A DNA stretch of 55,653 bases from Pseudomonadota bacterium (GTDB lineage Bacteria; Pseudomonadota; Gammaproteobacteria; Burkholderiales; Sulfuricellaceae), in the NCBI GenBank assembly GCA_021801705.1, contig JAJYXP010000068.1, forward strand, positions 1 to 55,653, read 5' to 3'. Shown here piece after piece: positions 6,151 through 22,328 of the stretch (positions within the stretch are counted from its first letter, which is position 1; each line of letters opens with the position of its first letter). The position numbers and the translations under genes were made by a program. The notes below the pieces were generated by a model. It searched no databases, had not been told where the DNA came from, and worked only from the letters and a program-made list of their open reading frames with translations.

Positions 6151-6759
6151 ATGCAATCGACTATCATAGACCTGATCCGCCACGGCGAGCCCGTTGGCGG
6201 ACGTCGCTACCGCGGCCGCACCGACGATCCACTGAGCGAAAAAGGGTGGCGCCAGATGTGGGCCGCGGTGGGCGATTTCCGCGGCTGGCAGCAGATCGCC
6301 AGCTCGCCGCTTTCGCGGTGTGCCGAATTCGCGCATGCGCTGGGCGAAAAACTGGAAATCCCGGTGAGCGTGGACGACCGGCTGGCCGAACTCGGATACG
6401 GCGAGTGGGAGGGCAAGACAGCGGCAGAACTGACTGCGGGCGATGCGGATATCCTGCGGCGCTATCGCCGCGATCCGGTGCACAACCGTCCCGCCGGCGC
6501 GGAAGACATCGACCGCTTCGCGGTTCGCGTCAAGGCGGCATGGGGTCAGGTCGCGGAGCAGAACACAGGCCGCCATGTCCTGGTGGTGGCCCACGCCGGC
6601 GTGATCCGCATGGTGCTGTCGCAGGTTCTGGCCATTCCCTTCAGCCATATGTTCCGCATCCAGGTGGGCAATGCGGCGATCAGCCGTATCGTGGTCGAGG
6701 GCGCGGGCGCGGAGGCTTTTCCCAGCCTGGTATTCCATGACGGCAGGCTGGCGGGCTAG
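6151..6759 (+). CDS. cobC: Histidine phosphatase, probable alpha-ribazole phosphatase
   Basis: A 202-residue phosphoglycerate-mutase-like enzyme. The catalytic motif DLIRHGEP (Arg10, His11, Gly12) is at the N-terminus; SSPLSRCAEFAHAL supplies the second arginine, ELGYGEWEGK the acid, and VVAHAGVIRM the second histidine. Within this family CobC removes phosphate from alpha-ribazole 5'-phosphate for the lower ligand of cobalamin; the place between a CobD-like gene and btuF supports that role. Its last 23 bases overlap the btuF start. Alternative: a general phosphoglycerate-mutase-like phosphatase, as these are hard to separate by motif alone. Confidence 0.85.
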   Translation: MQSTIIDLIRHGEPVGGRRYRGRTDDPLSEKGWRQMWAAVGDFRGWQQIASSPLSRCAEFAHALGEKLEIPVSVDDRLAELGYGEWEGKTAAELTAGDADILRRYRRDPVHNRPAGAEDIDRFAVRVKAAWGQVAEQNTGRHVLVVAHAGVIRMVLSQVLAIPFSHMFRIQVGNAAISRIVVEGAGAEAFPSLVFHDGRLAG

Positions 6760-7633
6760 CCGGTTCGCCGCGCTGGCATTGCTTTTCCTGGCCGCGGGGC
6801 CGGCTTCGGCAGCGACTGTCAAGCTGGCGGACGATGGCGGCCGGGTTGTCGTCCTGCCCGCGCCCGCCCGGCGCATCGTCTCGCTGGCGCCTCACGCCAC
6901 GGAACTGATCTTTGCCGCCGGTGCCGGCGACAGGCTGGTCGGTGTGACCGCCTACAGCGATTATCCCGCGGCAGCAAGAAAAATCCCCCAGGTCGGCAGT
7001 TATGGAAAGATGGACGCCGAGCGCATCCTTGCCCTGAAACCGGACCTTGTCATCGGCTGGAAAAGCGGCAATAGCGCCGCCGATATCGCCACGCTGGAAA
7101 GATTGCGCATTCCTGTCTTTCTCACCGAGCCGCTGCGGCTGGATGACGTTCCGCGCCTGATCAAAACCATCGGCGAACTGGCCGGCACGCAACCGGATGC
7201 GGCGAAAAGCGCGGACAAATTCAGTGATGAGGCGGACGCCTTGCGGCGGCGTTACAGCGGCCGTCGGCCGGTGCGGGTGTTCTATGAAATCTGGCACGAG
7301 CCGCTGCTCACCGTGAATGGAGCGCATTTCATCAGCGATATCATTGCAGCCTGCGGCGGCAGGAACGTGTTTGCCGGCGCCAGGAATCTGGTGCCCAGGA
7401 TTTCTGCCGAAAGCGTGCTGGCGGCGAATCCGGAGGCGATTGTCGGCGGCGGCAGGCACATTGGCAAGCGTGGCCTGCTGGATGGCTGGCGGCATTACCC
7501 GCGCCTGGCTGCAGTAAGCAGGCATCATCTGTTTCTGGTCAACGCAGACCTGATTCACCGTCCGACTCCGCGTACGCTCGATGGCGTGCGGCAGATGTGC
7601 GAACAGATCGAACGCGTACGGCTAAGCGACTAG
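6737..7633 (+). CDS. btuF: Cobalamin-type ABC transporter periplasmic binding protein
   Basis: A 298-residue exported binding protein. I chose the ATG at 6737, inside the end of cobC, because it begins a clean signal peptide (WRASRFAALALLFLAAGPASAA); earlier starts give an Arg/Ser-rich leader in the wrong place. The mature part is a class-III binding protein: RIVSLAPHATELIFAAGAGDRLVGVT, the second strand-turn EILALKPDLV-like pattern, FYEIWHEPLLTV, and the C-terminal lobe GGRNVFAG. Vitamin B12 or a precursor is the likely ligand because of the cob neighbours. The permease and ATPase that should go with it lie at 48479-50214. The TAG stop lies in the end of a REP-type element. Confidence 0.88.
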   Translation: MTAGWRASRFAALALLFLAAGPASAATVKLADDGGRVVVLPAPARRIVSLAPHATELIFAAGAGDRLVGVTAYSDYPAAARKIPQVGSYGKMDAERILALKPDLVIGWKSGNSAADIATLERLRIPVFLTEPLRLDDVPRLIKTIGELAGTQPDAAKSADKFSDEADALRRRYSGRRPVRVFYEIWHEPLLTVNGAHFISDIIAACGGRNVFAGARNLVPRISAESVLAANPEAIVGGGRHIGKRGLLDGWRHYPRLAAVSRHHLFLVNADLIHRPTPRTLDGVRQMCEQIERVRLSD

Positions 7634-7752: not shown

Positions 7753-7870
7753 CGTTCCCGCCAAGTCACCTGTGCGGGCGCTGATTAAGCGCTCCTGCTT
7801 AGTAAAATTTTCGGGTATTATTTTCCGCTATCGGGATATTCGGATATGCCGGTATTCGGGAAAGAGGCCC

Positions 7871-8927
7871 ATGGACATACACAGCAAGACCATCCACCAG
7901 CGCATCGACTGGGTGCTTGAAGTCGCCCAAAGACACTCGGCAAGCTATTGCAGCCCCGAGGAGTTCCTAGCCCGCGAGCGCTATCTGGCCGAGCATCCTT
8001 CCGCCATCGTCGTGCTCAAGTGCATGGACGGCCGCATCAACATCCCCGTCGCCACCAACACGCCGCCGGGCATCATCCAGCCGATCCGCAACCTCGGCGG
8101 CATGTTCAATCTGGGCTGGCCGCACCTCGGGGAAGTGCTTGCCAACTTCGTGCACGACAAGGTCACAACCGGCCGCCGGGTGCTGATGCTGATCACCTAT
8201 CACTTTTCCAGGGGCGACAAGCACCGCGGCTGCGCCGGTTTTTGCTTCGACACCGAGGCGGCAATCGCTCACACTTACGCGATCAAGCGCCAGGTGGAAC
8301 ACGTCTTTGGCCTCGGTCACGGCACGGTCTATCCCATCGTCTGCGGCTTCGAGACCGACGACGATGCGCTTATCCTGCACGGCGCCAGCGGTGAAGTGCT
8401 CGACGCATCCCGGCTCGCCCCCGGGGCTGAGAGCACCCTGTCGCTGCGCTTGGAGACGCTGTTCCCCGACATGCCCAACCAGGTGCGCCATGATCTGCTG
8501 CCGCTCATTCTGGGTAACATCGCTCACATCGCCGAGGTGAAGCGCGCTGCGCGCACCCTCGATATCGAGCATAGGGAGTGGATGATGTGCGTCGGGCGCG
8601 GTTTCGATTTTCTGCACATGCCCAACCTCGCGCTGATCATCGGCCCCTACAGTCCGGACCTGGCCGATCCGTCAGGCGGCGGGGATTGTCGAGAACAATA
8701 TGCGCGCCGGGCGTATTCCGGATGATGGTTTTCTGCTGCTGGCGTCGTCCCCATATGGAGAAATCGGCGTGGATCGGGCTCGCGCAGAGCTTAAGGCACG
8801 ATTCCTGTCGCAGTTCGCCGCCGATGTGATCCGTACCGAATATCCCGATTTGGCGGGCAAGATGTTCATGCGCACGGCTGTGCTCAATGGGCGTTCCCGC
8901 GTTCTGGAAACGCTAGCCGCTGAGTGA
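7871..8927 (+). pseudogene. Beta-carbonic-anhydrase-like protein, frameshifted
   Basis: Reading from ATG 7871 gives a protein with the beta-carbonic-anhydrase zinc pattern: Cys51, Asp53 and Arg55 in KCMDGR, then His118 and Cys121 in DKHRGC. After about residue 265 the frame runs off into DPSGGGDC and stops at 8725. The +1 frame continues without a break from RQAAGIVENNMRAGRI to a normal end at 8927 (FLLLASSPYGEIGVDRARAELKARF and on). One base gained or two lost between about 8664 and 8684, in a GGCGGCGGGG tract, explains both halves. Restored length would be about 352 residues, longer than typical beta-CA (about 220). It could be a carboxysomal-type CA relative or an uncharacterised CA-like family. 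Damage or sequencing error cannot be told apart. It converges on the SulP/Hyf-like operon, 33 bases from its end. Confidence 0.7.
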
Positions 8928-8960
8928 GACCCTGCCGGTGTTCTCGGCAAAGGGCATTCG

Positions 8961-9521
8961 CTATTCTGAAGGGTTCCCGGCTTTGACGCCGCCGCTGATG
9001 GCGGTGAGTATGCCTTGCAGCAGAGCGATCGGCGCGGGCGGGCAGCCGGGCACGGCGACATCCACCGGGATCACGTTGGAAATTTTGCCGCAACTGGCGT
9101 AGCTCTCGCCCTTGTCCCCGAGAGAATTGGTCGGGGAGAAGATGCCGCCAGTACAGCCGCAGTCGCCGACGGCGACCACCAGCTTGGGCTCCGGGGTCGC
9201 ATCGTAGGTGCGCTTGAGCGCAATTTCCATGTGGCGCGAAACCGGCCCGGTCACCAGCAGCATGTCGGCATGGCGCGGGCTGGCGACGAAGTGTATGCCC
9301 AGCCCCTCGATATTGTAGTAAGCGTTGTTGAGGGCGTGAATTTCCAGTTCGCAGCCGTTGCAGGATCCGGCGTCGACGTGGCGGATGGCCAGTGCCCGGC
9401 CGACGTGGCGCAGGATTTCCTTGTTCAGGCGCTGCGCCTCGGCGCGCAGGGCATCGTCCGGGCCGGGCGGGGCTTCGGTCTTGATGCCGGTTTTCAGGAT
9501 TTGCTTGATGATCTGGTACAT
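8961..9521 (-). CDS. hyfI: Hydrogenase-4-like small subunit (NuoB/HyfI family)
   Basis: A 186-residue NuoB-type subunit that in complex I and group-4 hydrogenases carries the proximal (N2-like) [4Fe-4S] cluster. Candidate ligands are all present: Cys54 and Cys57 in AGSCNGCELE, Cys121 or Cys123 in GDCGCTGG, and Cys160 in PGCPPAP. The protein is peripheral on the cytoplasmic face, next to the large subunit. It is the last gene of the operon, separated from hyfG by 165 bases holding a repeat rather than by the tight joints seen upstream. No strong Shine-Dalgarno is visible before 9521. With a large subunit that lacks NiFe ligands, it should pass electrons to something other than hydrogen, or act only structurally. 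Confidence 0.9.
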   Translation of the reverse strand: MYQIIKQILKTGIKTEAPPGPDDALRAEAQRLNKEILRHVGRALAIRHVDAGSCNGCELEIHALNNAYYNIEGLGIHFVASPRHADMLLVTGPVSRHMEIALKRTYDATPEPKLVVAVGDCGCTGGIFSPTNSLGDKGESYASCGKISNVIPVDVAVPGCPPAPIALLQGILTAISGGVKAGNPSE

Positions 9522-9529
9522 AACTTTTA

Positions 9530-9690
9530 TAACCCAAAAGCATTAACCGCAAAGGGCGCCAAGGAACGCGAAGGAAACGGGGTAGGCAGGGATGGGCGAC
9601 GTGTCGCCCAACTCGCAAAATCAATCAGGCCGATATTTCCATGAAAACTTGCTTTGCTTTCCTTTGCGTCCTTTGCGGTGAAAAAATTAT
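9530..9690. repeat. Inverted repeat between hyfG and hyfI
   Basis: An imperfect inverted repeat of ACCGCAAAGGGCGCCAAGG against CCTTTGCGTCCTTTGCGGT, with a short hairpin GGGCGACGTGTCGCCC between the arms. A related string (AACGCAAAGGCGCAAAGAAC) occurs near 55440. It splits an otherwise compact operon. Confidence 0.65.
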
Positions 9691-11234
9691 AAATCAACCC
9701 CGGTGTAACTCAGGTTGAACGATTTGTTGATGAGCGGGAAATCCGGCACGATGTTGCCGATGATCGAATGCTCCAGTACGGGCCAGTTCTGCCATGACGG
9801 GTCGTGCGGGTGCAGGCGGTGTATGGCGTTGTCCTTGCCGGTGTGCAGCGCTATCAGGATTTCGCCGCGCCATCCTTCCACCCAGCCGACGCCGAACGCA
9901 TTTTCCGGCGCATCCGCGACAGGCACGAGGCATTCCCCCGCCGGCAGGCGATCCAGGATCAGGCGGATCAATCGTATCGACTCCTGCACCTCCTCGAAGC
10001 GCACGGTGACCCGTGCCGCGACATCGCCATTGATGTGGGTGGCCATGCGCACATCAAGCTTGTCGTAGGGCTCACAGGGGAACTGGGCGCGCAGATCCCA
10101 CGCCTGGCCGCTGGCGCGTCCGGCCATGCCGGTCAGTCCCAGTTGCGCCGCCAGGTCTGGCGTGACCCGCCCGGTGGTGAGGAAGCGGTCCTGGGCGCCG
10201 GCATGCTCGTCGTAAATGTCTTTCAGGATCCCGACCCCCTTTTCGAGGTGCCTGAGCACTTGCAGGATGCGTTCCCGGCCCTTGCCGTCAAGGTCGCAGG
10301 CAACGCCGCCGGGCACCACTCTATCCATCAGGTAGCGGTGGCCGAATGTCTCGTGGTTCATCCGCAGCAGGTCTTCCTTGAGAATCCAGAACTGGGCGAA
10401 GCCAAACGCCAGCGCCACGTCGTTGCCGAGGTAGCCGAGGTCGCCGAGATGATTGTGGATGCGCTCCAGTTCGAGCAGGATGGCGCGAAGTGCCGCGGCA
10501 CGCGGCGTGGGAGCGGTGCCGGCGACGGATTCCACCGCCTGGGCGTAGGCCCAGGCGTAGGCGACGGTGCTGTCGCCGCTGACGCGTCCAGCCAGTTTGG
10601 CGCCTTGTTCCAGGGTCATGCTCTCGAACAGTTTTTCGATGCCCTTGTGCTTGTAGCCGAGGCGTTGTTCCAGCTTCAGCACGCGCTCGCCGATGATCGA
10701 AAAGCGAAAATGGCCCGGTTCGATGGTGCCGGCATGTACCGGGCCGACCGGGATCTCATGCACACCGTCGCCGGTGACCGTGACGAACCGGTAAGCGTCT
10801 GTTTCCGTGGGGAACACGGTGCCGCCGTCGAAGTTTTTGCGCAACGGGTGTACGCTGCCCGGCCAGGAGCCGTGGCGCAGCCATTTGCGGTGGTCGTCGT
10901 TGCCGCTGGCGTGCAGCCCGAGCAGGTCGGCCACGGCGCGCTGCATACGGTTGGCGGCCGGAAACAGGTCGCTGATATCGGGGAAGGAGGGGCGCTCCGC
11001 ATTCACCGGCAGGGTCAGGCAGAGCATGCCGATGGCAGTGACCAGCGAGGTGTGGAGGGCGTAGCCGGCATCCCTTGCGAGTTCATCGCTGCCCCACAGC
11101 GCCACCAGTTTGCCGCCACCGCGTTGCACCTGTTCGCACAGGTTGCGGAATTCGGTGGAATCCACTGTGCCATGCCAGATCGGCATGGCGCCGGGGAGTT
11201 TTGGAAATTTTGCCGGGAATTCGTCTAGGCGCAT
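9687..11234 (-). CDS. hyfG: Hydrogenase-4-like large subunit (NuoCD/HyfG family) lacking NiFe ligands
   Basis: A 515-residue fusion of a NuoC-like N-terminal domain (FPDISDLFPAANRMQRAVADLLGL, then SVHPLRKNF at about 127-135) and a NuoD/HyfG-like domain (HFRFSIIGERVLKLEQRLGYKHKGIEKL at 175-202). In real group-4 hydrogenases the NiFe site is held by two CxxC motifs. Here the first is RVSGDST (217-223) and the second is DPSWQNW (from 478), so all four cysteines are gone. It therefore belongs with the Ehr (energy-converting-hydrogenase-related) complexes, not with hydrogen-evolving enzymes. The rest of the fold is intact and of normal length, which argues for selection on another function rather than decay. 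Cytoplasmic side of the membrane complex. Confidence 0.88.
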   Translation of the reverse strand: MRLDEFPAKFPKLPGAMPIWHGTVDSTEFRNLCEQVQRGGGKLVALWGSDELARDAGYALHTSLVTAIGMLCLTLPVNAERPSFPDISDLFPAANRMQRAVADLLGLHASGNDDHRKWLRHGSWPGSVHPLRKNFDGGTVFPTETDAYRFVTVTGDGVHEIPVGPVHAGTIEPGHFRFSIIGERVLKLEQRLGYKHKGIEKLFESMTLEQGAKLAGRVSGDSTVAYAWAYAQAVESVAGTAPTPRAAALRAILLELERIHNHLGDLGYLGNDVALAFGFAQFWILKEDLLRMNHETFGHRYLMDRVVPGGVACDLDGKGRERILQVLRHLEKGVGILKDIYDEHAGAQDRFLTTGRVTPDLAAQLGLTGMAGRASGQAWDLRAQFPCEPYDKLDVRMATHINGDVAARVTVRFEEVQESIRLIRLILDRLPAGECLVPVADAPENAFGVGWVEGWRGEILIALHTGKDNAIHRLHPHDPSWQNWPVLEHSIIGNIVPDFPLINKSFNLSYTGVDL

Positions 11235-11248
11235 GTTTTTGGCTTTAA

Positions 11249-11381
11249 ATTAACCACGAATTACACGAATGTTCACGAATTCACACGAATAAAAACCAAG
11301 CTCAATGTGCGATCGTTGTATTTGCCTTGTTGCCATCATTCGTGCCTATTCGTGAACATTCGTGTTAATTCGTGGTTAAAG
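11249..11381. repeat. Inverted repeat, family TTAACCACGAATTACACGAA
   Basis: About 130 bases with inverted ends (TTAACCACGAAT against ATTCGTGGTTAA) and internal repeats of CACGAATGTTCACGAAT. A second copy is at 32900-33049 and a half copy at 55397-55425. It fills the whole gap between hyfF and hyfG. Confidence 0.8.
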
Positions 11382-11393
11382 TTTTTAATCAAC

Positions 11394-12842
11394 TCATCCG
11401 ATCAACGCCGCTGCCTGGCGATACCAGTCCGCCAGGTAGGGCGGTATGTACAGGCCGAGCAGCAGCACCAGGCCCAGGTGGACGAATACCGGCACCAGCG
11501 CGGGCGGATGAGGCAGGGGCTGCTCGGTGGTTTCGCCGAACACCATGGTCTGCATGCGGCCGAAAATCGCGGCGAACGCGACGCCCAGCGCGGCGAGCAG
11601 GAACGGTGTGGTCCACGGGTAGGAGTGCATGGCGGTGGTGATGATCATGAACTCGCTGGCGAACACGCCGAATGGCGGCATGCCGAGTATGGCCAGGGTG
11701 CCGATCGCCAGACCCCAGCCGATGGTGGGACTGGTCTTGATCAGGCCGCGAATGCGTTCCATCAGTTGGGTGCCGGTCTGCTGGGCGGCGTGGCCGACGG
11801 CGAAGAAGATCGCCGACTTGGTGAGGGAATGCACCGTCATGTGCAGCATGCCGGCGAAAGTGGCGACCGGGCCGCCCATGCCGAAGGCGAAGGTCATCAG
11901 CCCCATGTGCTCGATCGAGGAGTAGGCGAACATGCGCTTGACGTCCTTCTGGCGCGACAGGAAGAAGGCGGCCATGACCACGCTGAGCAGCCCGAATCCC
12001 ATCATCAGGTTGCCGGCGAGATGGCTGCCCAGGGCACCGTCCACCAGCACCTTGGAGCGCACCACGGCATACAGCGCGACGTTCAGCAGCAAGCCGGAGA
12101 GCACCGCGGAAACCGGTGTCGGCCCTTCGGCGTGCGCATCGGGCAGCCAGTTGTGCAGCGGCGCCAGGCCGACCTTGGTGCCGTAGCCCACCAGCAGGAA
12201 GACGAAGGCCAGGGAGAGCACGGTCGGCTCGAGCTGGGTTTTGACGACATCGAGGTGGGTCCACAGCAGGGCGGTACCGCCTGCGCCGAGCACCTTTTCC
12301 GCCGCAAAATACACCAGGATGGTGCCGAACAGGGCCTGGGCGATACCCACGCCGCAAAGGATGAAGTATTTCCACGCCGCCTCGAGGCTGGCCGGGGTGC
12401 GGTAAAGAGAGACCAGCAGCACGGTGGTGAGGGTCGCCGCTTCCATCGCCACCCACATGATGCCGAGGTTGTTGGTCAGGAGCGCCAGCAGCATGGTGAA
12501 GGTGAACAACTGGTACATGCTGTGGTAGAGGCGCAGCATGTTGATGCTGAGCTTGCCGTGGTGCTGCTCGATGCGCATGTAGGGGCGCGAGAACAGCGAG
12601 GTGGTGAAGGCGACGAAGGCGGTGAGCGCCACCAGGAAGACGTTGAATGAATCGACGAAAAATTGTTCGTTCAGGGCGGTCATCGGGCCGTCGGTGATGA
12701 CACGGACAGTGAGGAATGCCGATGCCAGGAAGGTGCCGAAGCTCATCGCCGAGTTGAGCTCGGGCGCGAAGCGCTGGCAGCCGAAGAGCGCCAGCAGCAG
12801 GCCGCCGATCAGGGGAATCGCCAGTATCCAGAGAATTTCCAA
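11394..12842 (-). CDS. hyfF: Hydrogenase-4-like antiporter-type subunit F (NuoN/NuoM family)
   Basis: A 482-residue polytopic protein of the complex-I antiporter family. It shows the conserved motifs WVAMEAATLTTVLLVSLYRT (acid in the fifth helix), LVGYGTKVGLAPLHNWLPDAHAEGPTPVSAVLSG (lysine and the broken-helix region) and RMFAYSSIEHMGLM, then HSLTKSAIFFAVGH. These residues line the proton channel in NuoL/M/N, so proton translocation is a fair inference. Start 12842 follows the hyfE stop with a single base between. A repeat lies between its stop and the hyfG start. Confidence 0.9.
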   Translation of the reverse strand: MEILWILAIPLIGGLLLALFGCQRFAPELNSAMSFGTFLASAFLTVRVITDGPMTALNEQFFVDSFNVFLVALTAFVAFTTSLFSRPYMRIEQHHGKLSINMLRLYHSMYQLFTFTMLLALLTNNLGIMWVAMEAATLTTVLLVSLYRTPASLEAAWKYFILCGVGIAQALFGTILVYFAAEKVLGAGGTALLWTHLDVVKTQLEPTVLSLAFVFLLVGYGTKVGLAPLHNWLPDAHAEGPTPVSAVLSGLLLNVALYAVVRSKVLVDGALGSHLAGNLMMGFGLLSVVMAAFFLSRQKDVKRMFAYSSIEHMGLMTFAFGMGGPVATFAGMLHMTVHSLTKSAIFFAVGHAAQQTGTQLMERIRGLIKTSPTIGWGLAIGTLAILGMPPFGVFASEFMIITTAMHSYPWTTPFLLAALGVAFAAIFGRMQTMVFGETTEQPLPHPPALVPVFVHLGLVLLLGLYIPPYLADWYRQAAALIG

Positions 12843-12843
12843 G

Positions 12844-13503
12844 TCAATCTTCCTTAAGTTTTTCCATGTGCTTCAAATCCAGGCTGTCGAAGGTTTCCCG
12901 AATCTGGAAGAAGAAAATACCCAGAATGAACATGCCCACCAGCACGTCGAGCGCGATGCCGAGTTCCACCACCATCGGCATGCCATAGGTTGCGCTGGTG
13001 GCGGCGAAGAACAGGCCGTTTTCCATGGCGAGAAAGCCGATTACCTGCGGCACCGCCTTGCTGCGCGTGATCATCATCAGGAACGAGAGCAGCACGCTGG
13101 CCATGGCGATTCCCAGGGAGCTCTTGGTAATGGTGCCGGCCATCAGGGAAATGGGGGCCGCCAGGTTGAAGGCGAACACCACCAGTGCGATGCCGACCAG
13201 CATGGTGGTCGGGATGTTGATCAGCGTTTCGACATCCCATTTGACATTGAGCTTGCGGATCAGGCGATGCAGAATCCAAGGCAGGATGAGCACTTTCAGC
13301 ACCAGGGTCAGCGCCGCCGAATAGTACAGGTGGTGCTGGTGGGAGGTGTAAGCGACGAACATGGTGCTGACCGACAGGACAAGGCCCTGCATTGCGAACA
13401 GGTTGATCAGGGACAGCACCCGGCGCTGGGACAGCATGCCGAAGGCGATCAGGAGCAGCAGCGCCGCGAACAGATTGATGAGTTGTCCGTAAAAGTTTTC
13501 CAT
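12844..13503 (-). CDS. hyfE: Hydrogenase-4-like membrane subunit E (NuoK-like)
   Basis: A 219-residue membrane protein with six to seven hydrophobic segments. The C-terminal half resembles NuoK (SSLGIAMASVLLSFLMMITRSKAVPQVIGFLAMENGLFFAA, with a conserved membrane glutamate in MENG), preceded by an N-terminal extension typical of HyfE. In the complex it would sit between the NuoH-like and antiporter-like subunits. One base separates its start from the hyfC stop and one base its stop from the hyfF start, so the reading frames are packed for coupled translation. Confidence 0.88.
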   Translation of the reverse strand: MENFYGQLINLFAALLLLIAFGMLSQRRVLSLINLFAMQGLVLSVSTMFVAYTSHQHHLYYSAALTLVLKVLILPWILHRLIRKLNVKWDVETLINIPTTMLVGIALVVFAFNLAAPISLMAGTITKSSLGIAMASVLLSFLMMITRSKAVPQVIGFLAMENGLFFAATSATYGMPMVVELGIALDVLVGMFILGIFFFQIRETFDSLDLKHMEKLKED

Positions 13504-13504
13504 T

Positions 13505-14452
13505 TCAGCTTCCGTGCAGGAAATGAACGAGCAGGCCCAACACCGCCAGCAGGAAGGCGGTACCCATGAATTCCGGCACGCGGAAGATGCGCATCTTCGC
13601 TGAAACGGTTTCGAGCAGCGCCAAGCCGGCTCCCGCTGCCGCGAGTTTCAGGAAAAGTGCGACAAGAGCCAGAGGGATTGCGCCCCAATTGCCGGCCTCG
13701 GCAATGCCCCACGGCAGGAAAACGGCGATCCCGATCGTGCTGAAGGCGAGCAGCTTGAGTGCGCTCGCCCATTCGATCAGGGCGAGGTGGCGGGCCGAGT
13801 ATTCAAGGATCATGGCCTCGTGGATCATCGTCAGTTCGAGGTGGGTGGAGGGATTGTCCACCGGGATGCGGGCATTCTCCGCCAGCAGTACCATGATGAA
13901 GGCGATCGCGGCGAAGGCCAGGCTGGGATGGAGCACAAACTGCTTGTGGGCCAGGGTTTCGACGATGGTGCTCAGCGAGGTGGAATGGCTGATTGCGGCA
14001 GCGGTGAAGAACACCATCAGCAAAGCCGGCTCGGCGAGGAAACCGACCAGCATCTCGCGCCGTGCACCGAGTGTGCCGAAGGAAGTGCCGATATCCATCG
14101 CTGCCAGCGAGATGAATACCCGCGCCAGTGCGAAAATTCCGACCAGGACGATGACGTCGACCGCCGGGGAAAGCGGCAGGTCCGTCGCAATTACCGGCAC
14201 CAGTGATGCTGCCAGCCACATGCAGGCAAACAGGATGTAGGGGTGGAAACGGAACAGCGGCGAGGCGTTATGCGCCAGTACTGCATCCTTTTGGAACAGC
14301 TTGAACAGGTTGAGGTAAGGTCGCAGTATGCCGGGCCCGGTACGGTTTTGCAGCCAGGCGCGGCACTGATTGACCCAGCCCAGCAGCAGGGGCGCGACCA
14401 GCACCACCAGCGTGTTCTGGAAAAGTTGGAGAAGAATGCCGGAAATATTCAT
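13505..14452 (-). CDS. hyfC: Hydrogenase-4-like membrane subunit C (NuoH family)
   Basis: A 315-residue NuoH-type subunit, which forms the joint between the membrane arm and the hydrophilic arm. Family features are the N-terminal WVNQCRAWLQNRTGPGILRPYLNLFKLFQKD, the loop ALARVFISLAAMDIGTSFGTLGARREM, and LAENARIPVDNPSTHLELTMIHEAMILEYS, where the acidic cluster of the quinone/proton-coupling chamber lies. Eight membrane segments are expected. The ATG overlaps the hyfB stop by four bases. Retention of the coupling residues suggests that the complex still transduces energy despite the lost NiFe site. Confidence 0.9.
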   Translation of the reverse strand: MNISGILLQLFQNTLVVLVAPLLLGWVNQCRAWLQNRTGPGILRPYLNLFKLFQKDAVLAHNASPLFRFHPYILFACMWLAASLVPVIATDLPLSPAVDVIVLVGIFALARVFISLAAMDIGTSFGTLGARREMLVGFLAEPALLMVFFTAAAISHSTSLSTIVETLAHKQFVLHPSLAFAAIAFIMVLLAENARIPVDNPSTHLELTMIHEAMILEYSARHLALIEWASALKLLAFSTIGIAVFLPWGIAEAGNWGAIPLALVALFLKLAAAGAGLALLETVSAKMRIFRVPEFMGTAFLLAVLGLLVHFLHGS

Positions 14453-16461
14453 CGGACAAAGGCCAGCAAAGCAAGCAGGGTCAGGAAGCTATAGAGCAGA
14501 TAAATATGGATGCGGCCATGCTGCAGCCTGCCGATCAGCGCGGAGAGTTTTTCAGTGACCGAGGCGATCGGCAAGTAAGCGTAATCCCAAATGCGGTCGC
14601 GCGATTCGCCGCGGTAGTGAGGGTGCTTGTCAAACGGGGTGGGCACGATGCGGGTGACCCCGAAAAACGGTTCGAATATCTGGCGGATCGGCTGGCCGAA
14701 ACCTTCCGCGGTATCCTGCATGCGCGCGGTCTGTTCGGGGAAGCCGCAATCCCATGCCGGGCCGTGGCGCAGGCGGCCGTGATAAAATTTTTTCACCGCA
14801 AGCATGGTAAATATGACGCCGACGATGACGATCAGGAACAGGATCAGCGGGCTGTAGCTGGCGCGCCCCGGTTCAAGCGGGGTCAGCCACAGCCAGCCGG
14901 TCTGGGCGGCGCTGCCGCCCAGGGTATGGCCGACCATCAACTGGGTAACCGGGTCGATGAGCAGGATGACGAATACCGGGAATACCCCCAGCAGGATGCA
15001 GCCGAGAGCCAGCCAGCCTAGCCCGATCCGCTCCCAGATGCCGATATCGTGCGCATCTTCGAATTTCCCCTCGCGCGGCTGGCCGAGGAAAATCACCCCG
15101 TAGAATTTGACCATGACGTAGCCCGCAAGCGCCGAAGCGAGCACCAGTGCCGCTGCGGCGATCGGGATCAGCATGTTGAGGTAGGAATGGGGCAGTCCCG
15201 GCGATAACAGGAAGGCCTGCAATATCAGCCATTCGGAAACGAAGCCGTTCAGGGGCGGCAGGCCTGCAATGGCCAGTGCGCCGACCAAAACCAGCAGGGC
15301 CAGTTTCGGCATGGGGTGAATCAGGCCGCCCAGCTTGCCCAGTTTGCGCTCGCCGGTGGCATGCAGTACCGAACCGGTGCCAAGGAACAGCAGCCCTTTC
15401 ATGAATGCGTGGTTGAGGGCGTGATAAAGCGTGGCGGTGAGCGCCAGCGCCGCCACCGCATCCTTGCGGAAGACGTGGAAGGTGATGGCGAGGCCGATGC
15501 CGACCAGAATGATGCCGATGTTTTCGATCGAAGAATAAGCGAGCAGACGTTTCATGTCCGTCTGCACTGCCGCGAATATTACCCCGAACAGCGCGGTAAT
15601 CAGGCCCAGCGTCAGTGCCAGCACGCCCCACCACCACAACTGTACGTCGATCAGGTCGAAAGTGACACGTAAGATCCCGTAGATCGCGGTTTTCAGCATG
15701 ATGCCGCTCATCATGGCGGAGACCGGCGAGGGGGCGGCCGGATGGGCTTCAGGCAGCCAGACGTGCAGCGGCACGATGCCGGCCTTGGCGCCGAAGCCGA
15801 ACAGCGCCAGGAGGAAGGTGACGCTGGCCCATAATTCGTTCAGATGCGCGTTGCGCATGGTGGCAAAGGTGTAGTCGCCATGCCCCCCCTGCATCACGCC
15901 GAAGCACATCAGGATGGCGATTGCGCCGACATGGGCGATTAACAGGTAGAGGAAGCCGGCGCGGCGGATTTCCGGGACAACATGGTCGGTGGTGACGAGG
16001 AAGTAGGAGGACAGCGCCATGGCTTCCCATGCCACCATGAACAGGTAGGCATCGTCCGCCAGGAATACCAGCGCCATGGCGGCGAGAAAAATGTGGTATT
16101 CGAAGCATAACAGTCCCAGTTCGTTGCCCTCGTAGTCGCGGAAATAACCTGCGGAATAGAGCGAGATGCCGATGCTGGCGGCGCCGAGCAACAGCATGAA
16201 AAAGGCGGACAGCGAGTCCATGCGCAAATGAAAGGGCAGGTCGGGCAGGCCGAGCGGAAGCACCGCCACGTTGGCTGGGCCACCCAGCCCGCTCAGGGCA
16301 GCCGCCGCCAGTACCAGGGCGCCGGCTGCGCCGGCGGGAAAGATCACTCGCGTGATGGTGCGGGTATTCTGCAGCAGCAGGCCGGCGAAGGCCAGCAGCA
16401 GCCAATAGACGATGACCCCCAATGCGACGTCGATGGGCAGCAGGGTTGAAACAAAGATCAC
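14449..16461 (-). CDS. hyfB: Hydrogenase-4-like antiporter-type subunit B (NuoL/HyfB family)
   Basis: A 670-residue antiporter-type subunit with about 16 membrane segments. Visible motifs are FMVAWEAMALSSYFLV (helix-5 glutamate), LFGFGAKAGIVPLHVWLPEAHPAAPSPVSAMMSG (lysine and discontinuous helix), KRLLAYSSIENIGII and NHAFMKGLLFLGTGSV (second lysine). The C-terminal part carries FGQPIRQIFEPFFGVTRIVP, as in HyfB/HycC. It would pump protons or sodium in the distal membrane arm. It starts 34 bases after the stop of the SulP gene on the same strand, so the two are very probably one transcript. Only two antiporter-type subunits (B and F) are present; no HyfD, HyfA or HyfH homologue is seen. Confidence 0.92.
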   Translation of the reverse strand: MIFVSTLLPIDVALGVIVYWLLLAFAGLLLQNTRTITRVIFPAGAAGALVLAAAALSGLGGPANVAVLPLGLPDLPFHLRMDSLSAFFMLLLGAASIGISLYSAGYFRDYEGNELGLLCFEYHIFLAAMALVFLADDAYLFMVAWEAMALSSYFLVTTDHVVPEIRRAGFLYLLIAHVGAIAILMCFGVMQGGHGDYTFATMRNAHLNELWASVTFLLALFGFGAKAGIVPLHVWLPEAHPAAPSPVSAMMSGIMLKTAIYGILRVTFDLIDVQLWWWGVLALTLGLITALFGVIFAAVQTDMKRLLAYSSIENIGIILVGIGLAITFHVFRKDAVAALALTATLYHALNHAFMKGLLFLGTGSVLHATGERKLGKLGGLIHPMPKLALLVLVGALAIAGLPPLNGFVSEWLILQAFLLSPGLPHSYLNMLIPIAAAALVLASALAGYVMVKFYGVIFLGQPREGKFEDAHDIGIWERIGLGWLALGCILLGVFPVFVILLIDPVTQLMVGHTLGGSAAQTGWLWLTPLEPGRASYSPLILFLIVIVGVIFTMLAVKKFYHGRLRHGPAWDCGFPEQTARMQDTAEGFGQPIRQIFEPFFGVTRIVPTPFDKHPHYRGESRDRIWDYAYLPIASVTEKLSALIGRLQHGRIHIYLLYSFLTLLALLAFVR

Positions 16462-16495
16462 GAGGGGTTCTCCAGCATCTTGTTATTGGCGGCTA

Positions 16496-18643
16496 TTATA
16501 GCCAGGTTTTTACCCCATCGGCACCGCCAATGTGCCCGCCCTTCATCAGACGGCATTGCGCATTGGGGTCTGCCTCAAGCACTTCGGCGTAAATTGAATC
16601 CAGCGCCTTGTCCTCGTCGGGGAAAATGTTTTCCTGGCCGATGTAATCGAACAGGCCGGAATGGCGCATGACGTCGATCACCTGCTTCTTCAATCCGCTG
16701 AAGACCACCCGGATGCCGTTGGAACGCAGCCTTTCCACCACGTGGTGGATGACCTCGTCACCCGAAGCGTCGAGCTGGTTGATGCCATCCGACACGATCA
16801 GCAGGTGTTTGGCGCAGGGGCTGTTGGATACCGCCTCCAGGATGGTGTCTTCGAAATAGGGCACGTTGGCGAAATAGAGGGAGCCGTCATAGCGGATGGC
16901 GATGATGTATTCGCTGACCGGCAGATTGTGCACTTTGGCGTCGCGCAGGGTGCCGTCGTGATAACGGCCGAGGATGGCAACGCGCGGCGACATGGTGCGG
17001 TAAAGGTAGAGGATGATGGCCAGGCCGGCGCCGAGCATGATGCCGTTATCCAGGTGGGGCGCAAAAGCCAGGGTGGCGACGAAGGTCACGACCGAGGCGA
17101 TGCCATCGTGCTTGTGGGTGTGCCAGGCATGCTTGATCGCCTTGAAATTGACCAGGCCGATGACCGCCATCATGATCACCGCGGCCAGCACAGCCTGGGG
17201 CAGGTGATACAGCAGCGGAGTGAGGAGCAGCAGAGTGACCAGCACGATCACCCCGGCGAACACAGAGGACATGCCGGTTTGGGCGCCGGCATTGAGGTTT
17301 ACCGCGGAGCGCGAGAACGAACCGCTGGCTGGAAACGCCTGGCTGAAGCTGCCGACGATGTTGCCGAGGCCCTGCCCGATCAGCTCCTGGTTGGGGTCGA
17401 TGCGGTCCCTGGTTTTGGCCGCCATCGCCTTGGCGATGGAGATCGCCTCCATGAAACCCACCAGTGAAATCACCAGCGCCCCGGAAAACATCGTCGCCAT
17501 CATGTCCCAACTGAATTTGGGCAGGTCGAATTTGGGCGGGCCGGCCGGGATGGCGCCTACGACTTCGCCACCGCCGACCAGCTTGAGTTCGCCCTTGCTC
17601 ACTTTCTTGATGCGCCAGCGGTAGCCGTCGGATTTTTCGCTCCGGGGCACCTGGCCGGCCAGATAAAGCTTGGCGGGTTGACCATCGGCTGCGGGCACTT
17701 GCTCGAAAAGGAACTTGCGCATGGAGCGGGCAAGCTTGCGGTTTTCGCCTCCCGCATCCTTGAGCTCCAGTTTGAGCAACTCGATTTCGTAGTTCAGCGC
17801 GGCGGTGCGCTGGCTGCTGCCTTCATGGCTTTTTTGATGCTGTTTGAGTTCGGCCGATTTGGCGCTGAGCTTGTTGTTCAGTTCGTCGATCTTGGTTTCG
17901 GTCTGGGAAAACTCGTTGGCGAGGGTCTTGACCTCAGTATCCATGATTTCCTCGATCTTGCCCTTGCTGTTGTGCTCGAAGCCGATAGCCCAGCTTACGA
18001 TGGTGGTGAGGGCGACGGCGATCAGCACGCCGGGCATCTTGGGGGTGAATTTTTTCAGCCCCCACATGATGGCGAAGGCGGAGACGCCCATCAGCAGCGT
18101 TGGAATATGGGTATCGCCAACCTGTTGCAGCACGCCCCAGATATCCTGGATGAAATGTTCGCTGCGCCCCATCGAGACGCCGAACAGCTTGTTGAGCTGG
18201 GACAGGCCGATGATGATGGCGGCGGCGTTGGTAAAACCGACGATGACCGGATGGGAGAGGAAGTTGACGACCACGCCGAGCTTGAATACCCCCAGGGCGA
18301 GCTGAATGATGCCCACCATCAGCGCCATCAGAATCGCCAGGGCGATGAACTGGCTGGAGCCGGTGGCTGCCAGGGGGGCGAGCGTGGATGCCGTGAGCAG
18401 GGAGACCACCGCCACCGGTCCGGTGGCGAGCTGGGCGGAAGAGCCCCACAAGGCGGCGATGATGCCGGGGAGGAATGCCGCGTAGAGCCCGTAATAGGGA
18501 GGCAGGCCGGCAAGCTGGGCATAGGCCATGGATTGGGGAATCAGGACCAGGGCGACGGTAATGCCGGCGATAAAGTCGGCCTTGACGGCATCGCCGCGCA
18601 GCGGAAACCAGTTCAAAAAAGGCAGGAAGCGCTTCAATTGCAT
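16496..18643 (-). CDS. SulP-family anion/bicarbonate-type transporter with hydrophilic insert and STAS domain
   Basis: A 715-residue SulP (SLC26) transporter. The N-terminal core has the usual signature LIPQSMAYAQLAGLPPYYGLYAAFLPG, then AAAIIIGLSQLNKLFG; the core ends with SGSFSRSAVNLNAGAQTGMSSVFAG, and a C-terminal STAS domain (about 555-690) follows. Between about residues 224 and 360 there is an extra, highly charged segment (KTLANEFSQTETKIDELNNKL and on) that looks like a coiled coil plus a small beta domain; ordinary SulP proteins have only a short loop here. Substrates in the family include sulfate, chloride and bicarbonate. The location as first gene of the Hyf-like operon, near a CA-like gene, makes bicarbonate/CO2 attractive, but that is inference. 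Confidence 0.88.
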   Translation of the reverse strand: MQLKRFLPFLNWFPLRGDAVKADFIAGITVALVLIPQSMAYAQLAGLPPYYGLYAAFLPGIIAALWGSSAQLATGPVAVVSLLTASTLAPLAATGSSQFIALAILMALMVGIIQLALGVFKLGVVVNFLSHPVIVGFTNAAAIIIGLSQLNKLFGVSMGRSEHFIQDIWGVLQQVGDTHIPTLLMGVSAFAIMWGLKKFTPKMPGVLIAVALTTIVSWAIGFEHNSKGKIEEIMDTEVKTLANEFSQTETKIDELNNKLSAKSAELKQHQKSHEGSSQRTAALNYEIELLKLELKDAGGENRKLARSMRKFLFEQVPAADGQPAKLYLAGQVPRSEKSDGYRWRIKKVSKGELKLVGGGEVVGAIPAGPPKFDLPKFSWDMMATMFSGALVISLVGFMEAISIAKAMAAKTRDRIDPNQELIGQGLGNIVGSFSQAFPASGSFSRSAVNLNAGAQTGMSSVFAGVIVLVTLLLLTPLLYHLPQAVLAAVIMMAVIGLVNFKAIKHAWHTHKHDGIASVVTFVATLAFAPHLDNGIMLGAGLAIILYLYRTMSPRVAILGRYHDGTLRDAKVHNLPVSEYIIAIRYDGSLYFANVPYFEDTILEAVSNSPCAKHLLIVSDGINQLDASGDEVIHHVVERLRSNGIRVVFSGLKKQVIDVMRHSGLFDYIGQENIFPDEDKALDSIYAEVLEADPNAQCRLMKGGHIGGADGVKTWL

Positions 18644-19199: not shown

Positions 19200-22100
19200 C
19201 TATTTTTCTTTGAAAAGCGTCCATTCCTTGACCAGGGCATAGAGCGCCGGGATGACGATCAATGTCAGGATCGTCGAGGAGACCATGCCGCCCACCATCG
19301 GCGCGGCGATGCGGCTCATCACCTCGGAGCCGGTGCCGCTGCTCCACATGATCGGCAGCAGGCCGGCCATGATCGCCACTACCGTCATCATCTTCGGCCG
19401 CACCCGTTCCACCGCGCCTTCCATCACCGCGGCGTAGAGATCGGGCAGGGCCAGCTTGCCGCCTTCGGCTTCGCGCTTGGCTTTAAGCTCGTTCAGGGCA
19501 TGGTCGAGGTAGATCAGCATCACCACGCCGGTTTCGGCCGCGACGCCGGCCAGTGCGATGAAGCCGACCGCCACGGCCACCGAGAGGTTGTAGCCGAGCG
19601 CCCACATCAGCCAGATGCCGCCAACCAGGGCGAAGGGCACCGAGAGCATGACGATGAACGTCTCGGTCAGCCGCCGGAAGTTGAGGTAGAGCAGCAGGAA
19701 GATGGTGAGCAGGGTCACCGGAATGACGACTTTCATCTTCTGGATGGCCCGCTCCATGTATTCGAACTGGCCGCTCCAGGTGATGTAATAGCCCGCCGGG
19801 AATTTCACCTGATCGGCCACTGCCTTGCGCGCGTCGGCCACGTAGGAGCCGATGTCCCGGTCGCGGATGTCGACGAAGATGTAGGCGGAGAGAAGCGCGT
19901 TCTCGGTGCGGATGCCCGGGGTGCCCCTGGCGATTTCCACTTTGGCGACCTGGCCGAGCGGAACCATCGCGCCATCCATGGTCGGCACCAGCACCTCGCG
20001 GGCGATCTGCTGCGGGTTGGAACGGAGTTCGCGCGGGTAGCGAACCTGCACCCCGAAGCGCTCGCGTCCTTCCACCGTGGTCGTTACCGTCTCGCCGCCC
20101 AGCGCGGTGCCGATGACCTCCTGCAGGTCGCCGACCGCCAGGCCGTAACGGGCCAGTTGCTCGCGATCCGGTTCGATGTTGAGGTAATAGCCGCCGGTGA
20201 TGCGTTCCGCGAAGGCGGAGGTCGTTCCCGGCACGGTCTTCACCACGGCTTCGATTTGTTTGGCCAGCTTTTCCATCTCGCCCAGATCCTTGCCGAAGAC
20301 CTTGATGCCGATCGGGGTGCGGATGCCGGTGGAGAGCATGTCGATGCGCGCCTTGATGGGCATGGTCCAGGAGTTGGCGACGCCGGGGAATTGCAGCGCC
20401 TTGTCCAGTTCGGCGATCAACTTGTCTATCGTCATGCCGGGCCGCCATTCCGACTCCGGCTTGAGGTTGATCACGGTCTCGAACATCTCGACCGGCGCCG
20501 GGTCGGTGGCGGTATTGGCGCGGCCCGCCTTGCCATAGACCGAAACCACTTCGGGGAAGCTCTTGATGATCTTGTTCTGGGTTTGCAGCAGTTCCGCCGC
20601 CTTGGTGATCGACATGCCGGGGAGTGAAGCCGGCATGTAGAACAGCGTGCCCTCGTTCAGCGTCGGCATGAACTCGCTGCCCAGCTTCGAAGCGGGGTAA
20701 ATCGACACACCGAGTGCAAGTATGGCGGCGACGATAGTCGTTTTCTTCCAGCGCATCACCCAGGCGATGATCGGACGATAAATCCAGATCAGAAAGCGGT
20801 TCACCGGGTTCTTCGCTTCCGGCATGATCTTGCCGCGAATGAACAGCATCATCAGCACCGGCACCAGCGTGACCGACAGCAAGGCGGCACCGGCCATGGA
20901 GAAGGTCTTGGTGTAGGCGAGCGGGGAGAACAGCCGCCCCTCCTGCGCTTCGAGGGTGAACACGGGAAGGAACGACACCGTGATGATCAGCAGCGAGAAG
21001 AACAGCGCCGGCCCCACTTCCTTGCACGCCGCAATCATCGCATCGGCGCGATCCTGGTTGGTATGGCCTTCCTTCAGCCGCTCCAGATGCTTGTGGGCGT
21101 TCTCGATCATCACGATCGCCGCATCCACCATCGCACCGATGGCGATGGCGACACCGCCGAGGCTCATGAGGTTGGAGTTCATGCCCAGAGCACGCATGGC
21201 GATGAAGGCGATCAGCACCCCCACCGGCAGCATCAGGATGGCCACCAGGGCTGAGCGCACGTGCAGCAGGAAGATCACGCACACCGCCGCAACGATCAGG
21301 CTTTCCTCGATCAGCGTGCCCTTCAGGTTCTCGATGGCGCGATGGATCAGATCGGAGCGGTCATAGACCGCCTCGATGCTGACACCCTCCGGCAGGCCGG
21401 CGGAAATTTCGCTCACCTTGGCCTTGAGATTGCCGATGACCTCCAGCGCGTTCTGGCCGAAGCGGGCCATGGCGATGCCGGACACCACTTCGCCCTCACC
21501 GTTGAGCTCGGTCAGGCCGCGCCGCTCATCCGGCCCCAGTTCAACCCGGGCGATGTCGCGAATCAGCACCGGCGTGCCCTTGTCGCTCTTCACCACCAGC
21601 GCTTCAATGTCGCCCTTGCCGCGCAGATAACCCATGCCGCGCACCATGTACTCGGTTTCGGCCATTTCCACCACCCGCCCGCCGACGTCGCGGTTGGAGT
21701 CGCGGATGATCTGGGAGACCTTGGACAGCGGAATCCCGTAGGCGCGCAGCTTCACCGGGTCCACCGTCACCTGATAAGTCTGGACGAAGCCGCCGATGGA
21801 AGCCACCTCGGCCACCCCTTGCGCCTTGGTCAACTGATAGCGCACATACCAGTCCTGGATCGTGCGCAGTTCCGCCAACGTCTTGTCCTTGGCCAGCAAG
21901 ACATACTGATACACCCAGCCGACGCCGGTGGCGTCCGGCCCGAGCTGCGGCGTGACGCCTTGCGGCAGACGCCCGGTGAGCGAGGATAAATACTCCAGCA
22001 CCCGCGAGCGGGCCCAGTAGATGTCGGTGCCATCTTCGAAGATCACATAGACGAAGGACGCGCCAAAGAAGGAGAAGCCCCGCACCACCTTGGACTTGGG

Positions 22101-22328
22101 CACGGCGAGCATGGACGTGGTGAGCGGATAGGTGACCTGGTCTTCGACCACCTGCGGCGCCTGGCCGGGATACTCGGTGTAGACGATGACCTGCACGTCC
22201 GAGAGGTCGGGCAGGGCATCGAGCGGGGTCTTCACGACGGCGTAGATGCCGCCGATGACGACGAAGAGGGTGGCGAGCAGGACGAGGAAAAGATTCCTGC
22301 CCGACCATTCAATGATTTTGGCCAGCAT
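19200..22328 (-). CDS. cusA: Copper/silver RND efflux pump CusA
   Basis: A 1042-residue heavy-metal RND pump of the inner membrane that uses the proton gradient to drive Cu(I)/Ag(I) out through CusB and CusC. The methionines that shuttle Cu(I) in E. coli CusA are matched by YMPASLPGMS, PVEMFETV and RIDMLSTG, favouring copper/silver over zinc/cobalt (CzcA). The proton relay acid is in GAMVDAAIVMIENAHK. Twelve membrane segments and two large periplasmic loops are in their usual places and the length is normal. It is last in the cusCBA run; its start is 12 bases from the cusB stop. A terminator candidate follows about 490 bases downstream. Confidence 0.95.
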   Translation of the reverse strand: MLAKIIEWSGRNLFLVLLATLFVVIGGIYAVVKTPLDALPDLSDVQVIVYTEYPGQAPQVVEDQVTYPLTTSMLAVPKSKVVRGFSFFGASFVYVIFEDGTDIYWARSRVLEYLSSLTGRLPQGVTPQLGPDATGVGWVYQYVLLAKDKTLAELRTIQDWYVRYQLTKAQGVAEVASIGGFVQTYQVTVDPVKLRAYGIPLSKVSQIIRDSNRDVGGRVVEMAETEYMVRGMGYLRGKGDIEALVVKSDKGTPVLIRDIARVELGPDERRGLTELNGEGEVVSGIAMARFGQNALEVIGNLKAKVSEISAGLPEGVSIEAVYDRSDLIHRAIENLKGTLIEESLIVAAVCVIFLLHVRSALVAILMLPVGVLIAFIAMRALGMNSNLMSLGGVAIAIGAMVDAAIVMIENAHKHLERLKEGHTNQDRADAMIAACKEVGPALFFSLLIITVSFLPVFTLEAQEGRLFSPLAYTKTFSMAGAALLSVTLVPVLMMLFIRGKIMPEAKNPVNRFLIWIYRPIIAWVMRWKKTTIVAAILALGVSIYPASKLGSEFMPTLNEGTLFYMPASLPGMSITKAAELLQTQNKIIKSFPEVVSVYGKAGRANTATDPAPVEMFETVINLKPESEWRPGMTIDKLIAELDKALQFPGVANSWTMPIKARIDMLSTGIRTPIGIKVFGKDLGEMEKLAKQIEAVVKTVPGTTSAFAERITGGYYLNIEPDREQLARYGLAVGDLQEVIGTALGGETVTTTVEGRERFGVQVRYPRELRSNPQQIAREVLVPTMDGAMVPLGQVAKVEIARGTPGIRTENALLSAYIFVDIRDRDIGSYVADARKAVADQVKFPAGYYITWSGQFEYMERAIQKMKVVIPVTLLTIFLLLYLNFRRLTETFIVMLSVPFALVGGIWLMWALGYNLSVAVAVGFIALAGVAAETGVVMLIYLDHALNELKAKREAEGGKLALPDLYAAVMEGAVERVRPKMMTVVAIMAGLLPIMWSSGTGSEVMSRIAAPMVGGMVSSTILTLIVIPALYALVKEWTLFKEK

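Follow-up and report, generated by a model that had tools for sequence, protein, structure and literature searches.

The 55,653 bp window (contig JAJYXP010000068.1 of assembly GCA_021801705.1) carries seven co-directional genes on the complementary strand (8961–18643), in which a SulP anion transporter gene is followed by the six genes of a hydrogenase-4-like complex, hyfBCEFGI, with a carbonic-anhydrase-like gene converging on the far end. In close relatives an orthologous SulP gene heads the operon of DAB, an established inorganic-carbon pump. The shared slot behind SulP, the anhydrase gene at the other end in several genomes, the near-exclusive distribution of the two systems, the runs that join dab and hyf and the repeated adjacency to RuBisCO genes are all seen by comparative genomics, and by analogy they are best explained if the Hyf complex holds the role that DAB holds in close relatives. 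A complex at DAB's position should do an equivalent job, and, judging from sequence, we regard a role for SulP–hyfBCEFGI, with or without the carbonic anhydrase, in inorganic-carbon acquisition in the window's family as reasonably probable. The Hyf complex may be the energy-coupled partner in this process, and itself an unrecognized carbon-uptake machine.

A slot behind SulP shared by hyf and dab

The family set comprises 22 Gallionellaceae-like genomes, namely the window genome (G000; 2.84 Mb in 79 contigs) and G369–G389, from which the neighbourhoods of SulP and HyfG were fetched; the closest named relatives of the window HyfG are in Gallionella and Gallionellales records (81–82 % identity). 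The complex occurs in 16 of the 22, 14 being recognized by HyfG and the other two from genes on truncated contigs (L095 and L110), and DabA in seven. The window genome has no DabA (PF10070) match. Two genomes (G386 and G388) have both systems and one (G374) has neither, a near-exclusive distribution with a Fisher P-value of 0.004 when kinship is ignored.

In all seven DabA-bearing genomes the orthologous long SulP gene is directly upstream of an antiporter-type dabB and then dabA (the DabA of locus L106 matches PF10070 with 788 bits), and three further antiporter genes follow wherever the contig is long enough. The adjacency of SulP and hyfB, which the earlier note had described in the window, extends well beyond it, with SulP as the immediate upstream neighbour of hyfB in 11 of the 16 Hyf-bearing genomes: the same SulP in eight and a second SulP paralogue in three (G381, G382 and G385). 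The gene ahead of hyfB is a dab gene in G386 and G388, and the contig of G372 is too short to show it. Two contigs of G388 share 141 identical end bases inside the last dab gene, so that sulP, dabB, dabA, three antiporter genes and hyfBCEFGI very probably follow one another in a single direction, the hyfB frame lying 80 bp past the dab stop codon; the same junction lies on a single contig in G386, where it spans 56 bp. In a SulP tree of 26 rows the partner changes between Hyf and Dab three times. A separate case is Accumulibacter locus L200, where hyfBCEFGI is followed about 1.5 kb further on, on the same strand, by dabB–dabA and two more antiporter genes; to our knowledge, Candidatus Accumulibacter is not known as an autotrophic lineage.

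The SulP–hyf operon and the convergent CsoSCA-like gene

The earlier note's description of the operon was accurate as to coordinates, order and strand. Read along the complementary strand, the genes encode SulP (16496–18643; PF00916, with a C-terminal STAS domain, PF01740), the NuoL/Mrp-type antiporter-like subunit HyfB (14449–16461; NF005086, 905 bits, cut-off 667), the NuoH-like HyfC (13505–14452; PF00146, E-value 2e-36), the hydrogenase-4 membrane subunit HyfE (12844–13503; NF008556, E-value 9e-28, 98 bits, cut-off 136, and its position in the conserved gene order), the NuoM/N-like, antiporter-like HyfF (11394–12842; NF005045, 886 bits, cut-off 543), the NuoC+NuoD-like large subunit HyfG (9687–11234; PF00329 and PF00346) and the NuoB-like small subunit HyfI (8961–9521; PF01058, E-value 4e-31). 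The Pfam and NCBIfam matches are consistent with these names, with HyfC, HyfE, HyfG and HyfI scoring below their NCBIfam cut-offs and HyfE having no Pfam match. The first four joints are 34, −4, 1 and 1 bases as claimed, and the last two (hyfF–hyfG and hyfG–hyfI) are 159 and 165 bases. A promoter and terminator scan gave four promoter-like matches where 3.1 are expected, which is chance level, and a single transcript is thus unsupported by it.

Aligned to HycE from the formate hydrogenlyase structure (7z0s_E), the window HyfG has SGDS in place of CGIC and, at its C-terminus, SYTG in place of CYSC, in agreement with the reported lack of nickel–iron (NiFe) ligands. The HyfG alignment contains 146 rows, 144 of them different, with a few genomes fetched twice; among the 141 rows from fetched hyf loci that cover all four ligand positions, 100 read SSSG and none has more than one cysteine. 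D221 is kept in 145/145 rows, and a glycine is found at the position aligned to a complex I tyrosine that we take to be the quinone-site tyrosine. The iron–sulfur ligands of HyfI are retained, as had been noted, with C54, C57, C121 and C160 present in 137, 137, 136 and 135 of 137 rows, and we likewise find no gene for a ferredoxin-type HyfA or HyfH in the run 8961–18643, the rest of the genome not having been searched for them. HyfB keeps E146, K226 and K257 in 121, 122 and 114 of about 122 rows, and HyfF keeps E134 and K223 in 136 and 138 of 139; glutamate and lysine residues of this kind are typical of proton-conducting antiporter subunits. Since the cysteine ligands of the large subunit are missing, the complex, on its residues, is not a NiFe hydrogenase, and with the small-subunit ligands kept it fits the Ehr type, a name that we take to denote group 4-related complexes without the NiFe site. 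We know of no established reaction for Ehr complexes.

In the SulP protein the transport domain is divided in two by an insert of about 130 residues (approximately 225–357), which aligns in A2 and is absent from L190. A structural model (mean predicted local distance difference test score, pLDDT, of 46, usable locally only) places two long helices at 236–271 and 277–308 with local values of about 69–84, and the insert seems to consist of an extended hairpin of helices together with strands. The Dab- and Hyf-linked SulP copies of the family are all long (688–725 aa), and the Dab-linked SulP of G350, from another family, is short (592 aa). The window protein scores 451 against the general sulP model (cut-off 380) and 146 bits against the BicA equivalog model, far below the cut-off of 880; it has SulP and STAS domains in common with BicA and other SulP bicarbonate transporters but differs from them in its insert, its low BicA score and its linkage to hyf or dab. 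In family genome G387 (L247, contig C24) a SulP gene of this type is flanked by cbbO on one side and by SbtA/PII-like/cbbQ genes on the other, beside a carboxysome and RuBisCO cluster. We also note that two to four SulP genes crowd the SulP–dab/hyf locus in L096–L099, L101, L102, L106 and L108, some of these loci also containing a ChrB-like gene (by Pfam in L106), a gene that we take to be ChrA-like and a gamma-carbonic-anhydrase-like hexapeptide gene; such loci are perhaps inorganic-carbon transporter islands.

The carbonic-anhydrase-like gene reported to converge on the operon (7871–8725, forward strand) proves to be specifically CsoSCA-like, with a match to TIGR02701 (E-value 5e-10, 39 bits against a cut-off of 241) and none to Pfam. 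Its stop codon is 235 bases from that of hyfI. The match to CsoSCA in the PDB is weak (E-value 0.002), the alignment to 2fgy covering H144 and C154 only; the best Foldseek match is CsoSCA 9g4t (E-value 2.7e-5), obtained with a low-confidence model of the relative L187 (pLDDT 52, built from two sequences). C84, D86, R88, H144 and C154 are kept in 20/20 rows (17 distinct genes, including that of the window), and we take these cysteine and histidine residues and the Asp–Arg pair to be the CsoSCA active-site residues. CsoSCA is thus the best match in sequence and fold, with active-site residues kept, but it is 450–540 residues long compared with about 350 here, and genes of the present type lie beside hyf or dab, the window genome having no carboxysome gene. 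The window open reading frame opens at 7772, with homology beginning at about 7871, and is frameshifted, the conserved C-terminal part lying in another frame past the stop at 8725 (region 8640–8961), which is either an assembly error or recent decay.

CsoSCA-like genes are present in 13 of the 22 family genomes, and bacterial microcompartment (BMC) genes, searched for in this family set, in only one. In the class sample described below they are rare (6/369 genomes), and all six carriers have RuBisCO. Apparently free-standing members of this carbonic anhydrase family are found in the window (7871–8725), L068, L154–L158 and L187. The gene converges with hyfI in four family genomes (G000, G371, G373 and G378). 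In G379 and G350 its convergent neighbour is the last dab gene, and in G082 it shares the strand of hyfI and follows it after 4 bp. In G389 it is 2.2 kb from dab, and in the remaining family carriers it is elsewhere or the contig does not show its position. We considered the CsoSCA-like protein as a stand-in for DabA and reject this, since it accompanies both hyf and dab and is therefore an accessory rather than a substitute. A different, gamma-carbonic-anhydrase-like hexapeptide gene sits a short way upstream of hyfB in L114/L125 and L190, and in L117, L119 and L186 the two are at most about 1 kb apart; the gene encodes a protein with His 61, 78 and 83 kept in all covering rows (14 rows, 13 distinct genes).

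The flanking genes look unrelated to the operon. Upstream of SulP is a large gene in the region 19200–22328, presumably an efflux gene of the resistance–nodulation–division type, CusA/CzcA-like; before the anhydrase gene (6151–7633) are a BtuF-like gene and a phosphatase-like gene that we take to be phosphoglycerate-mutase-like. A similar phosphatase-like gene precedes the anhydrase gene in loci L105 and L162.

RuBisCO and other carbon genes around hyf

The window genome has one RuBisCO match, whose protein is 91 % identical to Thiomonas CbbM and therefore form II. Linkage of hyf to RuBisCO genes is seen at several other loci. In G373 and G378 a large gene (GGDEF/EAL in G373) lies beyond the anhydrase, then a regulator (LysR-type in G373, with a counterpart in G378) and a form I RuBisCO operon, cbbL and cbbS-Q-O, with a classical beta-carbonic anhydrase (beta-CA) gene later on. 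In Thiobacillus (L186 and L188) cbbL-S-Q-O faces hyf, in Thiomonas (L225) the order is hyf–cbbM-Q-O, and in the distant genome G358 (L084) cbbM-Q-O is ahead of hyf. By the published locus tags, hyf-like genes of Acidithiobacillus ferrooxidans adjoin form II RuBisCO, AFE2149-54 next to AFE2155 (PMC2621215) and, in strain NFP31, ANFP_19460-19510 next to cbbM, ANFP_19520 (PMC8759370), and the extracts of both papers contain no remark on the adjacency (papers are cited here and below from extracts).

Two further sets of loci were compared, with the loci fetched for the family set counted in neither. The class sample contains 369 genomes, of which 52 have a HyfG match at an E-value of 1e-30; eight (30–33 % identity or a short fragment) were left out, giving 44. 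The class loci are 40 of the 45 fetchable HyfG places above 40 % identity, and the named loci are the best 80 of a longer match list, some Gallionellaceae included. As a control, 40 stretches of 20 kb were taken at round positions from nine HyfG-bearing genomes with large contigs. At least one gene for SulP, DabA, CsoSCA-like anhydrase or RuBisCO/CbbQ/CbbO was present at 2/32 class and 11/53 named hyf loci that span 14 kb or more, together 13/85, compared with 0/40 control stretches (one-sided P=0.005); a classical beta-CA gene was present in 1/40 control stretches. SulP lies at most 4 kb upstream of hyfB on the same strand at 10/67 named loci with a hyfB match, Thiobacillus, Sulfuritalea and Rhodocyclaceae included (in L168 and L226 with another gene between the two), and at 0/34 such class loci. 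A HyfG tree made by a quick method requires seven changes between linked and unlinked loci, so that the carbon link would have been gained or lost several times. The link has support in one branch of the Ehr complexes only.

A proposed role in carbon acquisition and its alternatives

In the mechanism that we propose, SulP would import bicarbonate, and HyfB, HyfF and HyfC would provide a path along which the proton-motive force drives protons (or sodium). This flow would be coupled either to the hydration of CO2 at the cytoplasmic face or to the uptake of bicarbonate through SulP. Hydration would take place in or close to what was once the NiFe pocket of HyfG, or at a carbonic anhydrase bound to the complex, and would let bicarbonate accumulate. 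The coupling of the complex to bicarbonate, by ions or redox, is something we infer, and within a role in carbon acquisition we rate vectorial CO2 hydration by the complex and support of SulP through ions or pH as about equally likely. A bolder and tentative suggestion is that Ehr, or at least its proteobacterial branch linked to SulP, DAB and RuBisCO, might be a CO2 pump of the complex I type that evolved independently and joins NDH-1MS and DAB as the third of its kind. The NiFe pocket left empty in HyfG would then have become, or would dock, a CO2-hydration site.

Several observations weigh against a carbon role. Within the family, G369 and G375 have hyf with neither SulP directly upstream nor a CsoSCA-like gene, and both systems are retained in G386 and G388, which means that Hyf and Dab do not simply replace each other. 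Outside it, 72 of the 85 hyf loci have no SulP, DabA, CsoSCA-like or RuBisCO/CbbQ/CbbO gene, and the complex is also found in Paraburkholderia, Burkholderia, Rhodoferax and similar records. The link to the Calvin cycle that the earlier note had proposed to test is thus borne out at the individual loci where hyf lies beside RuBisCO operons but not class-wide, where 23 of the 44 HyfG-bearing genomes have RuBisCO against 176/369 overall (P=0.53); neither is HyfG associated with DabA there (11/44, P=0.70), and DabA, unlike HyfG, does track RuBisCO (55/82, P=9e-5). The co-occurrence with carboxysomes that it had also proposed to test is not seen, BMC genes occurring in the single family genome mentioned above and no BMC shell gene (PF00936, E-value 1e-8) being found in the window genome. 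A free cytosolic anhydrase in a cell without carboxysomes would leak bicarbonate as CO2, and the anhydrase would therefore have to be attached to the complex, unless the purpose is pH control or a supply of bicarbonate to other carboxylases. The retained HyfI cluster ligands suggest electron transfer, for which the carbon model has no need. In A. ferrooxidans, Hyf subunits were not detected in the proteomes of H2-grown cells under a CO2-enriched atmosphere (PMC7735108), and the cbbM transcript rises with CO2 (PMC6458275), the wrong direction for an uptake role if hyf is co-transcribed with cbbM.

Among the alternatives, the complex may possibly be a mere Mrp-like ion pump or antiporter that energizes bicarbonate import by SulP or serves internal pH, with no CO2 chemistry, a reading that overlaps the ion-support half of the one we favour. 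The antiporter-like subunits do keep their glutamate and lysine residues, and pH and CO2 homeostasis via H2 evolution has been suggested for the Acidithiobacillus caldus hyf cluster beside a beta-CA gene (PMC3826726), but a bare antiporter would not need HyfG and HyfI, nor the invariance of D221, and within the sequence covered 57/67 named and 34/34 class hyfB loci have no SulP within 4 kb upstream. It is rather unlikely, in our judgement, that the complex has some other function in redox chemistry or proton translocation, for example with quinone, ferredoxin or another donor, and lies near carbon genes through clustering and co-regulation of autotrophic genes. The four HyfI cysteines, the 21/44 HyfG-bearing class genomes with no RuBisCO match and the occurrence in genera usually thought heterotrophic all suit such a job; however, the exchange with dab in one slot, the dab–hyf runs and the hyf–dab run of Accumulibacter point to carbon pumps rather than general autotrophic islands, the operon has no electron-input subunit and HyfG has glycine at the position aligned to the quinone-site tyrosine of complex I.

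That SulP is an ordinary permease for sulfate or another anion, present in the operon by accident, seems improbable: PF00916 does include sulfate carriers and the BicA score is low, but orthologues head the dab operons and the same type lies in the G387 carboxysome cluster. Formate hydrogenlyase or hydrogenase-4, as the genes are annotated, is very improbable, since despite the subunit names and fold family, and proposals in print for A. ferrooxidans and Sideroxydans (PMC5178258, formate-hydrogenlyase-like genes, for the latter), the missing cysteines already refute a NiFe enzyme, HydDB judges the large subunit of A. ferrooxidans hyfBCEFGI non-hydrogenase (PMC7735108), and formate dehydrogenase exceeds the curated cut-off in 1/22 family genomes, not that of the window (best match 558.5 bits, cut-off 666.25), with weaker matches in 17/22.

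Compared with known systems, a carbon-acquiring Hyf would share with DAB/DAC a NuoL-type membrane subunit, the carbon-gene context and the slot behind the same SulP, but it has no DabA and consists of six subunits, among them NuoH-, NuoCD- and NuoB-like ones, with iron–sulfur ligands. The cyanobacterial NDH-1MS and NDH-1MS' are complex-I-type machines that couple electron flow to CO2 hydration, and the same idea is proposed here for Hyf, although the operon is closer in sequence to hydrogenase-4 and contains no CupA/CupB-like gene (no Pfam match among nine window proteins scanned; the genome was not searched). The Ehr complexes of Acidithiobacillus (A. ferrooxidans AFE2149-54 and A. caldus hyfBCEFG) have the subunit set of the window and are likewise near carbon genes, cbbM in A. 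ferrooxidans (PMC2621215, PMC8759370) and a beta-CA gene in A. caldus, where hyf co-occurs with carbon-fixation genes (PMC3826726); the readings printed in these extracts are formate, hydrogen or pH, with no mention of a SulP or DAB link. Hydrogenase-4-like genes without HyfA are described in a vent bacterium (PMC4136832), and in A. ferrooxidans a SulP beside the can2 carbonic anhydrase gene is a predicted bicarbonate carrier (PMC6458275). Sideroxydans ES-1 has no carboxysome genes, and the words hydrogenase and hyf are absent from the extract of that paper (PMC3770913), as is hydrogenase from that of a review of the carbon toolkit listing SulP, SbtA, Chr, Cmp, DAC and the NADH-dehydrogenase type (PMC10880623). 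Among the matches listed in our literature search, whose scope left out most subscription journals, none proposes carbon uptake for hyf or Ehr.

Ehr complexes occur in many proteobacterial genomes, and the tie to carbon uptake offers them a concrete, testable job. The association of hyf with carbon genes spans the window's iron-oxidizer family and several other CO2-fixing lineages, and the exchange with DAB makes the role of Hyf testable by the assay in carbonic-anhydrase-free E. coli already used for DAB. If the proposal is true, a hydrogenase scaffold would be reusable for CO2 chemistry, and iron and sulfur oxidizers without carboxysomes and, like the window genome, without DAB would have an energy-coupled carbon pump.

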